64,000 bases of DNA from Allorhodopirellula solitaria (GTDB lineage Bacteria; Planctomycetota; Planctomycetia; Pirellulales; Pirellulaceae), in the NCBI RefSeq assembly GCF_007859855.1, contig NZ_SJPK01000011.1:62001-126000 (forward strand), in the 5' to 3' direction. Position numbers and translations under genes: made by a program. Shown one piece after another: positions 27,543 to 63,343 of this stretch. The notes beneath the pieces were generated by a model. The model saw nothing but the letters and a program-made list of their open reading frames with translations, did no database searches and was not told the DNA's origin. The first letter of the stretch is position 1. Every line of letters begins with the position of its first letter.

Positions 27543-27562
27543 CGGACCGGCGGAGCGGTCCG
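27543..27562. repeat. Hairpin related to the 77-bp array
   Basis: Seven-bp stem CGGACCG/CGGTCCG around GCGGAG, followed by ACTACA. It has the same architecture as the array hairpins at 61524 onward (CAGACGG/CCGTCTG around TCGGAG, then GCTACA) but with two paired base changes in the stem. Lies just after the lepA stop. Confidence 0.6.
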
Positions 27563-27572
27563 ACTACACTCG

Positions 27573-30502: not shown

Positions 30503-30532
30503 GGCAAATGTTTCGTAGGTGGAAAATGGTAG

Positions 30533-30633
30533 CCAGACGGCTCCGCCCGTCTGAGCTGATACACACTGGTTCCTCCCGACGGGCGGAGCCATCGGTCGAC
30601 AATTGCTTCCGACGGGCGGAGCCGTCGGTCGAC
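30533..30633. repeat. Palindromic repeat cluster of the 77-bp family
   Basis: On the minus strand: a stem CAGACGG/CCGTCTG around GCGGAG at 30534-30553, and two copies of a GACGGGCGGAGCC(A/G)TCGGTCGAC element at 30578-30600 and 30611-30633. The second copy is identical over 21 bases to the reverse complement of 61629-61649. It lies in the ROK kinase leader between two divergent genes. Confidence 0.7.
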
Positions 30634-46723: not shown

Positions 46724-46725
46724 AA

Positions 46726-47056
46726 AGCCCCAACGGGGGCGGTCCTATGACAGCCCCAGGCAACGCCTGGGGACCAACCGGACAATGCCAAACGAAAGCC
46801 CCCACGGGGGCGGCCCTATGACAGCCCCAGGCAACGCCTGGGGACGAACCGGACAATGCCAAACGAAAGCCCCAACGGGGGCGGTCCTATGATAGCCCCA
46901 GGCAACGCCTGGGGACCAGCCGGACAATACCAAACGAAAGCCCCAACGGGGGCGGCCCTATGACCGATGTAGGATGAGGACCGCCCCGTTGGGGCTGCGG
47001 AATCGACGACCAGGGCGTTGCCCTGGGCTTTTGTAGGATCGCCCCGTTGGGGCTGC
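46726..47056. repeat. 71-bp tandem palindromic array plus inverted remnants
   Basis: Unit starts at 46726, 46797, 46868 and 46939 (spacing exactly 71), the last partial. Each unit carries GCCCCAACGGGGGCGG and the 8-bp hairpin CCCCAGGC-AAC-GCCTGGGG. After it, 46981-47056 carries opposite-strand pieces (CGCCCCGTTGGGGCT twice and CCAGGGC-GTT-GCCCTGG). The array fills the gap between the pseudouridine synthase and sulfatase genes. Frames of 62-65 codons here are translated repeats, not genes. Confidence 0.85.
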
Positions 47057-59592: not shown

Positions 59593-61068
59593 ATGTTTAG
59601 AAGTTCGAATGGATTAAGAAGCCCGATTGGGCAAACTCCAGGATTTCGTTGGACGCATTTTCGCTCTTCCTGGCTGATGATGATCCTCGTTGTGGGGATG
59701 CTCGGAATGAGCACGGCACTCGTCTCGGTGGCCTCGGCGCAGGATGAAGTCGTTACTGTCACGGAGGTCGCAGAGGCCGCCGATGCGAGTGAGACCGAGG
59801 ATCTCGGCGTGGGCTACGCCCTCGACAATGCCGTGTTGTTTTTATGTGCCGTTCTTGTGTTGTTCATGCAGGCTGGCTTCGCGATGGTGGAAGTCGGGAT
59901 GAACTCGGCAAAGAACACCGTCAATATTCTCGCTAAGAACATCATGGATTTGTCCGTCGGGACCCTGTTGTTCTTCGTCGTCGGATTTGGCTTGATGTAT
60001 CCCACTCTCTACATGAGCGAAGCCGATGCGGAAACGGTCAGCGGCTATTTTGCCTTTGGCGGATCGGGGATCTACACGACCGACGACCCCGGTCGGACCT
60101 TCTCGCCTCAGGTGGACTGGTTCTTCCAGGCCGTCTTTGCAGCGACGGCAGCCACGATCGTCTCCGGTGCAGTGGCCGGTCGCATGAAGTTCACGGCCTA
60201 TCTCGTCTACAGTGCCATCCTGACCGGATTGATCTATCCTATCAGCGGATATTGGAAATGGGGCGGTGGCTGGATCGATGCCATGGGGTTCCAAGATTTT
60301 GCCGGTTCGGCAGTGGTTCACGCCGTGGGCGGTTTCGCTGGCCTCGCGGGTGCTCTGTTCCTCGGCCCCCGGTTGGGACGCTATACACCCGATGGCCGTT
60401 CGGTACCGCTGCCTGGTCACAACGTTGCCTTCTCGGCTCTGGGTGTGTTCATCCTGTGGGTGGGTTGGTACGGGTTCAACCCCGGCAGCCAGTTGGCTTT
60501 CCAGGGGACTGGAGACATTGATGCGGTCACCTTGATCGCGGTGAACACAACTCTCGCCGCGTCCGCCGGTGCGTTCATTGCTACCTTCATTGGCTGGGGA
60601 TTGTTCGGCAAGCCGGACTTGACCATGAGCCTCAACGGTGCTCTCGGCGGATTGGTTGGGATCACTGCCTGCTGCGATGCCTTTAGCAACTCCATGTCCA
60701 TCGTGATCGGTGGCGTAGCCGGTGTGCTCGTCGTCCTGGCAATCGTGGCTTTGGACAAACTCAAAATTGACGATCCCGTGGGTGCCTTTCCTGTGCACGG
60801 TGTGTGCGGGGTGTGGGGATGCATGGCGATGGGGATTTTTCCCAACACTCACTTCGAGGGTGTGTTCGAAGGATTCGTGACCCAGGCAATCGGTACGGTC
60901 GCCATCTGCGGATGGGCGTTTGTCACCATGTCGGTTGTCTTTGGAGTGCTCAAGGCAGTTGGCATGTTGCGAGTAACGCCTGCCGAAGAGCACGCTGGAC
61001 TGGATATCAGTGAGCACGGGATGCACGCCTATCCATCGGACGCCATCCATAGTGGTTCGGTTACTTGA
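59593..61068 (+). CDS. amtB: Ammonium transporter
   Basis: 491 aa, with a signal-like first part (WLMMILVVGMLGMSTALVSVASAQ), then about eleven spans. Conserved features: VSGAVAGRMKF near residue 195, the pore histidine in GSAVVHAVGGFAGL near 240, and the second in DDPVGAFPVHGVCGVWG near 397; GWYGFNPGSQ is also present. Conducts ammonium across the inner membrane. Ribosome binding GAGAAGG. Usually linked to the PII gene glnK, which is absent here. Followed by a strong hairpin and a terminator. Confidence 0.96.
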   Translation: MFRSSNGLRSPIGQTPGFRWTHFRSSWLMMILVVGMLGMSTALVSVASAQDEVVTVTEVAEAADASETEDLGVGYALDNAVLFLCAVLVLFMQAGFAMVEVGMNSAKNTVNILAKNIMDLSVGTLLFFVVGFGLMYPTLYMSEADAETVSGYFAFGGSGIYTTDDPGRTFSPQVDWFFQAVFAATAATIVSGAVAGRMKFTAYLVYSAILTGLIYPISGYWKWGGGWIDAMGFQDFAGSAVVHAVGGFAGLAGALFLGPRLGRYTPDGRSVPLPGHNVAFSALGVFILWVGWYGFNPGSQLAFQGTGDIDAVTLIAVNTTLAASAGAFIATFIGWGLFGKPDLTMSLNGALGGLVGITACCDAFSNSMSIVIGGVAGVLVVLAIVALDKLKIDDPVGAFPVHGVCGVWGCMAMGIFPNTHFEGVFEGFVTQAIGTVAICGWAFVTMSVVFGVLKAVGMLRVTPAEEHAGLDISEHGMHAYPSDAIHSGSVT

Positions 61069-61230: not shown

Positions 61231-61286
61231 CCCCCAATGGCCCGTAGTGAATGTCCGCCTCATTCACTGCGGGTCGGGGGTTTTTT
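61231..61286 (+). terminator. Rho-independent terminator downstream of amtB
   Basis: Stem CCCGTAGTGAATG/CATTCACTGCGGG (61241-61253 with 61261-61273; one G-T pair), flanked by pairing C5/G5 runs, 7-nt loop, then six T at 61281-61286. About 160 bp after the amtB stop. Confidence 0.8.
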
Positions 61287-61520
61287 CATGCGCAACGCCG
61301 TCTGGTTTTCCAGCGATGTTTGCGAATCTTAAACCATGGTCATTGTCTGCAGGGCTTGGCTCAGAGCAGGGCGCGTCGGGAAAAATAGATGGGGCACCCG
61401 CCGGCCACGCCCCCTATCGATGCTTCGATTTTCATTCGAGAACACGATGGCTGGTGCAGCGGTTTTGCTGGGGCGCTGATCTGTGGAGTGTGGCTAATGC
61501 GCCGACGCACTGTCTTGACA

Positions 61521-61779
61521 GCTCAGACGGTCGGAGCCGTCTGGCTACATAGTCGACCGACGACTCCGCCCGCTGCGAGTGTAGGGGCGTTGGTTAAGCT
61601 CAGACGGACGGAGCCGTCTGGCTACATAGTCGACCGACGGCTCCGCCCGCTGCGAGTTTGGAGGCGTTGGTTGAGCTCAGGCGGTCGGAGCCGTCTGGCT
61701 ACATAGTCGACCGACGGCTCCGCCCGTCGCGAGTGTGGAGGCGTTGGTTCAGCTCAGACGGTCGGAGCCGTCTGGCTGC
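61521..61779 (+). repeat. 77-bp tandem hairpin array
   Basis: Units start at 61521, 61598, 61675 and 61752 with exact 77-base spacing; the fourth is partial. Each carries a 7-bp stem CAGACGG/CCGTCTG around NCGGAG followed by GGCTACATAGTCGACCGACG and a second GACTCCGCCCG-type palindrome. The array lies between the amtB terminator and the malic enzyme stop. Related elements occur at 27543-27562 and 30533-30633. Confidence 0.85.
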
Positions 61780-61795: not shown

Positions 61796-63223
61796 CTATT
61801 CGAGGCTGTAGGCCGCTTTTGCTTTCCGGCGTGCGACACCGGATTCGATCGCGGCAGCTGAGACGGCTGACGCGACTACCTTGGCGACTCGACGGTCGAA
61901 CACACTCGGGATGATGTAATCATCGAGCAAGTCCGAAGGTGGGATCACTGCAGCGATTGCCTCGGCCGCGGCAATCTTCATTTCCGTATTGATCGTGGTA
62001 GCCCGAACGTCCAGGACGCCGCGGAAAAGGCCTGGGAAACACAACACGTTGTTGATTTGGTTGGGGAAGTCACTGCGGCCGGTCGCAATGATCCGAGCGT
62101 AAGGTTCCGCGAGGCTGGGATCAATCTCCGGATCGGGGTTCGCTAATGCGAAAACAATCGGATCTGTGCTCATGTTCTGAACATCTTCCACGGCCAGCGT
62201 ATTGGCTCCGGAGACGCCAATGAACACATCTGCTCCTTGGATCGCCCGGCTCAGTGGTCCAGCGACGGCTTCGGGGTTCGTGTTCTCAGCCAACCATTGC
62301 TTAGTCGGGTCCGCCTCGGGTTCTCTCCGGTGCAACGCACCATTGCGATCGCAGACGATGATGTTTTCAACTCCAGAGGTAATCAGCAGTTGGCAAATCG
62401 CCGTGCCAGCCGCGCCGGCGCCGTTGATCACAACGCGCACATCGGACATGTTCTTGTTGACCCGTCGCAGGGAATTCTTCAGGCCCGCGAGGACAACGAT
62501 TGCTGTACCGTGCTGGTCATCGTGAAAGACCGGGATCTCCAACTCGGCATCGAGGCGTTTTTCGATCTCGATACAGCGTGGTGCGGAGATGTCCTCCAGA
62601 TTGACACCGCCGAAGGTGGGCGCGAGATTCCGCACGATCGCGACGATTTCGTCTGTGTCCTGCGTATCCAAACAGATCGGAAAGGCATCGACATCGGCAA
62701 ACTCTTTGAACAGCATGGCTTTGCCCTCCATCACCGGCATTGCGGCGCGCGGGCCAATGTTGCCCAACCCCAGCACAGCGGACCCATCGCTCACGACGGC
62801 CACGGTGTTTTGCCGAATCGTCAGCGCAAAGGATGCCTCCGGGTCTGCTTCAATGGACTTGCAGACGCGGGCGACGCCGGGCGTGTACGCCATCGAAAGG
62901 TCGTCGCGTGTCTTGATCGGCGTCTTCGAAATGACTTCGATTTTGCCGCCCAAGTGCATGAGGAAAACACGGTCGGAAACATGCACAACCTCCACATCGT
63001 CCAGCTTTCTCAATCGCTCAACAATCTGTTTGCCGTGGTCGACGTCTTTGGCGTTGACGGTGAAGTCACGCGAGATTCGATGGCCAGCGATGTTGACGAT
63101 GTCGACTGCGCCGATCGCCCCGTCGGCTTCACCGATCGCCGTCGTAATGTGCCCCATGGCGCCCGGCGCATCGGCGTAGCGTAAGCGGATGGTGATGGCG
63201 TAAGTGGGACTGTGCTGAACCAT
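61796..63223 (-). CDS. ACT-domain fused NAD(P)-dependent malic enzyme
   Basis: 475 aa from ATG 63223 (MVQHSPTYAIT); ATG 63271 gives 16 extra residues. N-terminal ACT-like domain ~8-85 (YAITIRLRYADAPGAMGHI), then malic N-domain (DLSMAYTPGVARVCKSI with the catalytic Tyr, and LGLGNIGPRAAMPVMEGKA), metal-binding FHDDQHGTAIV near 255, nucleotide-binding GAGAAGTAICQLL near 290, and FPNQINNVLCFPGLFRG. Decarboxylates malate to pyruvate. The ACT domain suggests allosteric control by an amino acid or other small ligand. Convergent with the repeat array; no operon partner. Confidence 0.93.
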   Translation of the reverse strand: MVQHSPTYAITIRLRYADAPGAMGHITTAIGEADGAIGAVDIVNIAGHRISRDFTVNAKDVDHGKQIVERLRKLDDVEVVHVSDRVFLMHLGGKIEVISKTPIKTRDDLSMAYTPGVARVCKSIEADPEASFALTIRQNTVAVVSDGSAVLGLGNIGPRAAMPVMEGKAMLFKEFADVDAFPICLDTQDTDEIVAIVRNLAPTFGGVNLEDISAPRCIEIEKRLDAELEIPVFHDDQHGTAIVVLAGLKNSLRRVNKNMSDVRVVINGAGAAGTAICQLLITSGVENIIVCDRNGALHRREPEADPTKQWLAENTNPEAVAGPLSRAIQGADVFIGVSGANTLAVEDVQNMSTDPIVFALANPDPEIDPSLAEPYARIIATGRSDFPNQINNVLCFPGLFRGVLDVRATTINTEMKIAAAEAIAAVIPPSDLLDDYIIPSVFDRRVAKVVASAVSAAAIESGVARRKAKAAYSLE

Positions 63224-63343
63224 GGGATACTGCTGAAAGACGGGAGTTCGAAGTGTGCCGTTTTTTACCATGAATGGAATGGCGAAAACATCCGGGCGCT
63301 GGGCACCGTGGCGGCCAGCAGTTTGGGTCGCCGTGCCCCGTCT

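Follow-up and report, generated by a model that had tools for sequence, protein, structure and literature searches.

Several REP families, together with tyrosine transposase genes in great number and the repeats at their flanks, have been described in Rhodopirellula baltica (Di Nocera et al. 2013, PMC3733652). GTAG REPs, their dimers and tandem clusters, as well as these R. baltica families and genes, are already in print (PMC3733652), and hence the REP family discussed here adds a new, well-documented case to a bacterial repeat type that is already known. As a rule, each REP type in such systems has a single full-length gene (PMC6006769), and in the S. maltophilia and Marinomonas systems certain loop positions tolerate no change (PMC8266576).

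The window discussed here, a 64,000-nucleotide stretch of the Allorhodopirellula solitaria genome, carries a tandem array of hairpins between a malic enzyme gene and an ammonium transporter gene [Table 1]. The hairpins are GTAG-tagged REPs, mostly standing tail-to-tail with a GTCG-tagged partner as in REPIN/BIME elements. It is highly probable that they form the REP family of a RAYT/TnpA_REP single-strand transposase system, spread by RAYT and then amplified locally in tandem. A REP/BIME-type reading had been proposed in the initial annotation of the window, and the GTAG tag, the inverted partner dimers, and the linkage to RAYT now support it.

The 77-bp array and its relatives in the genome

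TRF identifies 61520-61777 as a tandem array with a period of 77, 3.4 copies, 92% matches, and 0% indels. The stems begin at 61524, 61601, 61678, and 61755, i.e., 77 apart, as had been noted for the four units. The initial annotation also gave all four units a perfect 7-bp CAGACGG/CCGTCTG stem followed by NCTACA. The stem is perfect in three of the four, while the third reads CAGGCGG/CCGTCTG, with a G-T at stem position 4; the tail follows every unit except the fourth, where GCTGCT is found. On the minus strand, the hairpin reads GTAG-C-CAGACGG-CTCCGN-CCGTCTG, a GTAG-tagged REP. Since the hairpin on this strand opens with GTAG, the CTAC of the tail corresponds to the REP foot in reverse complement.

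In the array unit, the REP is accompanied, at a distance of 3 nt, by an inverted partner hairpin, GTCGA-CCGACGG-CTCCGN-CCGTCG, such that the tags are on the inside. These partners, three in the array (61552, 61629, 61706) and two near the copy at 30.5 kb, had been missed earlier; two of the three in the array have damaged stems. As single-stranded DNA, the REP and partner at 61597-61651 fold together, at -16.7 kcal/mol on one strand and -18.8 kcal/mol on the other (z -3.8 and -4.3). Two inverted REPs that form a longer hairpin, which characterizes REPIN/BIME elements, and a GTAG-like tetranucleotide at one hairpin foot, which characterizes REPs, are therefore both present. In the window, CGGAGCCGTCTG has 22 matches with at most two mismatches, these elements included, relative to a mean of 11.45 and a largest value of 20 in shuffled sequences. 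Rfam at gathering thresholds gave no match in the window.

Table 1. Features of the REP array, its surroundings, and related elements (window positions unless a contig is named).
Feature	Position	Strand	Remarks
Lone REP, CGGACCG subfamily	27543..27567	-	GTAG-T-CGGACCG-CTCCGC-CGGTCCG; 5 bp past lepA stop codon
Lone REP	30529..30553	+	GTAG-C-CAGACGG-CTCCGC-CCGTCTG
Inverted partner, GTCGA-tagged	30576..30600	-	Beside the 30.5-kb REP
Second inverted partner	30609..30633	-	33 bp beyond the first partner at 30.5 kb
Ammonium transporter gene	59593..61068	+	Convergent to malic enzyme gene
Terminator-like hairpin	61238..61276	+	Downstream of ammonium transporter gene, in the stretch aligning with G007
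Tandem array	61520..61777	.	Unit = REP + inverted partner + spacer; 3.4 units, period 77
REP 1	61524..61548	-	GTAG-C-CAGACGG-CTCCGA-CCGTCTG
Inverted partner 1	61552..61576	+	GTCGA-tagged; damaged stem CCGACGA/CCGCTGC
REP 2	61601..61625	-	Loop CTCCGT on minus strand
Inverted partner 2	61629..61653	+	Damaged stem (CCGCTGC)
REP 3	61678..61702	-	One stem A-T changed to G-T
Inverted partner 3	61706..61730	+	Inner 6 bp intact (CGACGG/CCGTCG)
REP 4	61755..61779	-	Tag GCAG in place of GTAG; last copy; 16 bp from malic enzyme stop codon
Malic enzyme gene	61796..63271	-	Array begins 16 bp after stop codon
RAYT-like gene	C15:99440-100024 (L043:5438-6025)	-	PNHVH; REPs on both sides; strand as read on L043

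Two dispersed copies had been reported as well. The element at 27543-27562 is CGGACCG-GCGGAG-CGGTCCG followed by ACTACA, exactly as described, and the loop GCGGAG at 30534-30553 is correct, this copy being the CAGACGG hairpin read on the minus strand. The array and the 27543 copy lie between genes, and two copies are located inside transposase-like frames. The 30.5-kb group has the ROK domain of a ROK-family gene on one side and a permease gene on the other; it falls outside the Pfam domain, in the stretch by which the longest ROK frame (TTG start) is extended at the N-terminus.

The host genome (6.80 Mb, 62 contigs) contains 252 matches to the 18-mer CGGAGCCGTCTGRCTACA with at most two mismatches, against one match for the reversed pattern. 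Among 60 genomes examined, the 25-nt REP core with at most one mismatch occurs 197 times in the host, three times in the congener G007, and not at all in the 58 others. A short palindrome (20-40 nt) at high copy number, as expected of REPs, is thus present. The partner pattern matches 241 times in the host and at most five times in each of 12 congeners, several of those matches having other stems. These counts, with one genome per species compared, suggest a recent, lineage-specific expansion of the REP.

The arrangement of the copies was followed in the window and in 40 further stretches of the host genome, chosen for holding REP or Y1 matches. Most arrays keep a fixed spacing, exactly or to a few bp; from one array to the next, its typical value lies anywhere from 36 to 191 bp. 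Moreover, the spacers between units vary from array to array, although several look related. This pattern fits local tandem duplication of a dimer together with its neighborhood. The near-constant period of most arrays and the differing spacers could also be taken to mean that the array is a plain minisatellite, generated by slippage duplication, in which the palindrome is incidental. Such duplication would account for the arrays but not for the dispersed copies, the common inverted partner, or the covariation at RAYT flanks in other species (see below). As the whole story it is disfavored by that covariation and is scarcely credible; it is retained as the later of the two steps in the REP amplification proposed here.

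The initial annotation regarded the stem CGGACCG as a compensatory variant of CAGACGG, a claim that the three window copies could not support by themselves. Genome-wide, the CGGACCG/CGGTCCG pattern with at most two mismatches has 16 matches, and 15 of these, the copy at 27543 among them, carry that stem and form a true subfamily; the 16th, on C7, has the intermediate stem CGGACGG/CCGTCCG. Thirteen copies of the subfamily are organized in two 90-bp arrays (C2 and C26), where their neighbor is the GTCGA partner that also accompanies the CAGACGG form. When sites in the host genome were picked solely by the tag and CTCCG at fixed spacing (n = 290), pairing was 7/7 in 132 and 6/7 in 115, while in three controls with scrambled loops 1/61, 0/29, and 0/52 sites paired at six or more positions.

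Covariation among hairpin copies, which had been proposed as a check, was assessed by pair counts on ungapped alignments in place of a covariance model. It is present, modest within the genome and strong across species at RAYT flanks. For 43 distinct sequences from the host genome the score is 0.338 relative to 0.155 in shuffles, with slid versions at 0.056-0.251; the value stays modest, as the copies are for the most part nearly identical.

The interval between the malic enzyme and ammonium transporter genes

Between 61000 and 61900, a promoter scan found none. A terminator scan of the same interval gave two terminator-like sites, where 0.8 would be expected from shuffles. Both are on the plus strand; one covers REP 4 and the other is outside the array. 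The malic enzyme gene is found in all 13 genomes of the genus examined. In G007, whose malic enzyme is 90% identical, the same convergent pair of genes is present and the array is absent: the transporter match lies 295 nt downstream of malic enzyme in G007 vs 731 nt in the host. The G007 sequence aligns over the terminator-like hairpin and the transporter-side flank (69% over 276 columns), and the extra DNA in the host gap corresponds to the array plus roughly 230 bp. For the other 11 congeners, the transporter was not found in the ~1.49 kb downstream of malic enzyme, and for this reason they are unusable as empty sites.

Inspection by eye revealed palindromes of the type GTGG/GTAG-CACGGCGG-TCC downstream of malic enzyme in four congeners (loci L211, L212, L214, and L215). 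These resemble the hairpins that flank RAYT in L101 and are possibly separate REP insertions into the region downstream of malic enzyme.

A role in mRNA protection or termination is a hypothesis that has been named for some REPs (PMC3733652). In this scenario, the array would act at the RNA level, as a 3′ untranslated structure that protects the malic enzyme mRNA or aids termination. Its start 16 bp past the malic enzyme stop codon is consistent with such a function, as is the presence of a different tagged palindrome, seen by eye, at the corresponding place in the four loci mentioned above. However, the convergent pair in G007 does without the array, and both terminator-like matches are on the plus strand, which is the direction of the transporter and not that of malic enzyme. 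Moreover, the tag, the TCC apex, and the RAYT linkage are left unexplained. An RNA-level element is therefore unlikely as the explanation of the array, even though a role of the array in the malic enzyme transcript is possible.

RAYT-like genes and their flanking hairpins

The search for a RAYT/Y1 transposase elsewhere in the genome, which the initial annotation had called for, led to a RAYT-like gene located within the largest cluster of CAGACGG REPs among the stretches fetched [C15; Table 1]. This cluster holds 36 of the 255 hairpins in the clusters fetched, more than any other. A RAYT-like gene flanked by the same REP, the arrangement of a REPtron, is present on C15, with a frame that is interrupted by a TAG directly before the block carrying the catalytic Tyr in relatives. 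The HuH motif is PNHVH in C15, and the single catalytic Tyr lies in a block that is nearly invariant in 19 aligned sequences; in C15, this block is located after the TAG. The only other match in the host genome at E <= 0.001 is a paralog on C21 with an uninterrupted frame. Its flanks carry hairpins tagged GTCG that have an apex of CTCCG and stems of other sequence; on one side, these are spaced at 133-135 bp.

A profile of the 19 sequences searched against PDB has 4er8 (E. coli TnpA_REP) as its first match, with an E of 1.7e-5. The predicted structure of a relative that is 62% identical (L081) has a pLDDT of 91, and its best Foldseek match is again 4er8 (E 8.9e-6, TM 0.43/0.56, rmsd 6.4), a moderate similarity that points to the TnpA_REP fold for this model. 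All 19 aligned members match NF047646 (REP_Tyr_transpos) at E <= 0.001. The cut-off of that family, 80, is missed by the two host copies (24 bits for C15 and 47.2 bits) and by L081 (51.3), and the Pfam Y1_Tnp cut-off of 23 is missed by C15 (14 bits) and L081 (18.6). Since the two host copies and L081 score below these curated cut-offs, the genes are called RAYT-like here, i.e., related to but not assigned members of the family.

The protein is present at E <= 1e-10 in 29 of 60 genomes, including the host. Among titled records, the best 80 of 297 matches gave 80 loci, mainly from Planctomycetes and Verrucomicrobia, with a few from other phyla. The flank counts, which draw on these best 80 of 297, cover 87 loci; from the 111 RAYT loci, the 24 with less than 3400 nt were excluded. 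These 87 include the host loci L079 and L080, and L086 and L118 are the same contig, which makes one duplicate pair. GTNG-tagged hairpins with a stem of at least 7 bp and a TCC loop occur within 600 bp at 49 of the 87 loci, on both sides at 36, and no hairpin of this kind was found within 600 bp at the other 38. In total there are 184 such hairpins, 18 of them at the two host loci, compared with 0.0 in five dinucleotide shuffles. With the host loci left out, the corresponding numbers are 47 of 85 loci, 34 with hairpins on both sides, and 166 hairpins.

TCC is the prevailing triloop at these flanks, with a count of 158, the next being 14. When pairing is not required, 148 of 190 GT[ACG]G-N8-TCC sites pair at six or more of seven positions. 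The values for control loops are CTC 1/107, CCT 2/27, GGA 3/36, TCA 0/18, CCA 0/31, and ACC 1/42. TTC loops pair above the other controls (11/68), so TCC is not the sole apex; TTC looks like a minority loop. The TCC loop was chosen after inspection of the first 31 loci, and in the later loci alone 67 of 91 sites pair.

Across species, in 112 distinct sequences that do not include the host, the covariation score is 0.713 vs 0.211 for shuffles (sd 0.017), and none of 500 shuffles scored as high; slid versions gave 0.135-0.269. In the same 112 sequences, cells changed on both sides number 369 vs 156 in shuffles, and 71.4% of cells pair relative to 40.3%, while two of the five covariation measures (how many pairs show a double change, and how many pair types) are no different from the shuffles. 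Furthermore, stem distance correlates negatively with RAYT identity (r = -0.627, 43 loci, the host loci possibly among them), and none of 2000 permutations was as low. Stems thus vary between species and yet stay self-complementary, while the tag and the TCC apex are retained.

Searches for Y1-type transposases show that the host genome contains several groups of them. In this context, the REPs might have been moved by another HuH enzyme, such as the multi-copy NHFHL family or the IS200-like genes, and not by the C15 RAYT. The further Y1-type groups, the broken frame on C15, and the CAGACGG REP that lies in frame inside two NHFHL copies are all compatible with such a source. Against it, the RAYT lineage to which C15 is related has hairpins with the same tag and apex in other species, and their stems track its divergence. 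In addition, among seven other RAYT-like genes scanned in the host, those in L039 and L071 are near a different tagged palindrome, and the remaining five (three in L045, and those in L070 and L078) are without a GTAG palindrome. We therefore regard movement by another HuH enzyme as very unlikely. The type-1 RAYT-like genes were rejected as the cognate enzyme, the palindrome at L039 and L071 being GTAG-GGCCGGT... and none being found in L045 (three copies), L070, or L078. The NHFHL transposase-like family, considered as the REP source, is read instead as a target, as the REP is inside its frame.

The palindrome near the two RAYT-like genes, at L039:2131 and L071:1206 and 2349, is of the form GTAG-GGCCGGT-TCCC or TCCT-ACCGGCC, a further REP flavor of the host that likewise has a TCC loop. 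In the NHFHL family, the CAGACGG REP is at the same in-frame place in L040 (C6) and L041 (C14); in the copy in L039 (C1), the REP is located beyond the frame break, and a longer relative in L046 (C19) is without the REP there, as judged by eye. A RAYT-like unit of ~810-840 bp with inverted GAAGAAAAAGGTGAC-like ends occurs in six copies at 98-99% identity. Four are full copies, three on C20 (L045) and one on C2 (L070), and two are partial, 619 bp on C1 (L019, with a stop) and 279 bp on C3 (L024). This unit resembles a tyrosine transposase that is flanked by TIRs and has moved recently.

The window also has a second tandem array at 46724-46964, with a period of 71 and the palindromes GCCCCAACGGGGGC and CCCCAGGCAACGCCTGGGG. 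A corresponding 28-mer has 36 matches in the genome with at most two mismatches, and the reversed control has none. Copies are found on both sides of a 152-aa IS200-like gene (L075:1500-3000, C7), whose motif YIAHQEAHH fits the signature Y---Q--HH of subclass 1.2 (PMC6006769). This subclass is generally without typical IS200 end structures (PMC6006769), and the locus is possibly a REPtron-like locus of subclass 1.2.

Proposed history and comparison with described REP systems

By analogy with the E. coli, S. maltophilia, and Marinomonas systems (PMC8266576), RAYT would bind the folded single-stranded REP via its tag and loop, cut beside it, and paste copies elsewhere. As recognition would involve the tag and the loop, it would be the fold, and not the letters of the stem, that is selected. 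One dimer may have inserted into the gap that separates the malic enzyme gene from the ammonium transporter gene. The 77-bp array would then be a secondary event, in which the dimer and a short piece of neighboring DNA were repeated in tandem, growing by slippage or unequal exchange. Mobility may since have been lost through the TAG in the C15 RAYT: with this codon before the catalytic-Tyr block in the present assembly, the REP family may no longer move.

A broader reading, which we put forward tentatively as possible rather than probable, joins these observations. The RAYT lineage, whose members come mostly from Planctomycetes and Verrucomicrobia, might read only the GTNG foot and the TCC apex, while the stem drifts under pairing and each host lineage evolves its own REP letters. 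In the present host, the hairpins might have kept amplifying locally, in arrays with many periods, after truncation of the transposase.

These RAYT flanks constitute a natural test set for what RAYT reads, as foot and apex are fixed, stem letters are free but paired, and stems follow protein divergence. RAYT-REP specificity is thereby testable by stem and apex swaps between lineages. The host, in turn, is a case where REP arrays may outlive their transposase. The searched text of PMC3733652, PMC6006769, and PMC8266576 contains no mention of a TCC apex for this RAYT lineage, which is weak evidence, and the titles and abstracts among the literature matches listed, a set with most subscription literature outside its scope, do not name this REP.

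Relative to described systems, the GTAG REP families (PMC3733652) share with the present one the GTAG foot, stems of 6-9 bp in most cases, high copy number, dimers in opposite orientation, and clusters tandemly repeated with flanking DNA. Compared by description, they differ in that the partner here has GTCG. The loop here is centered on TCC, whereas TY or CMA fits many loops in that study (PMC3733652). The E. coli REP/BIME elements and TnpA_REP (4er8) likewise combine a tagged hairpin, inverted pairs, and an HuH-Tyr enzyme flanked by REPs. The sequence of the E. coli REP differs, however, and the hairpins discussed here have no conserved mid-stem mismatch bulge; their extra base is beside the apex. 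On the protein side, L081 has about 130 residues before HuH and 15% identity to E. coli TnpA_REP in the Foldseek alignment.

Similarities are also found with subclass 2.7 in the TnpA_REP classification published in 2018 (PMC6006769), which shares the [ND]HVH and WQ motifs, the Tyr motif YI..NP, a listed length of 213 aa, a long variable N-terminus, and GT[AG]G REPs. The Tyr motif of this subclass is YI[LR][NQ]NP, and the relatives described here have other middle residues; moreover, the C21 paralog has WF where subclass 2.7 has WQ. Subclass 2.7, compared here by motifs, is listed as mainly cyanobacterial (PMC6006769). The S. maltophilia REP, which like that of Marinomonas belongs to the Group 3 RAYT/REPs, has an 8-bp perfect stem and a 3-nt loop (PMC8266576), like the hairpins here. 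The hosts of the S. maltophilia and Marinomonas systems differ from the present one, and the likeness drawn here concerns the lengths of stem and loop. Set against these known systems, the less familiar features of the present one are the common TCC apex, combined with stems that drift freely, and a RAYT that appears to be truncated.
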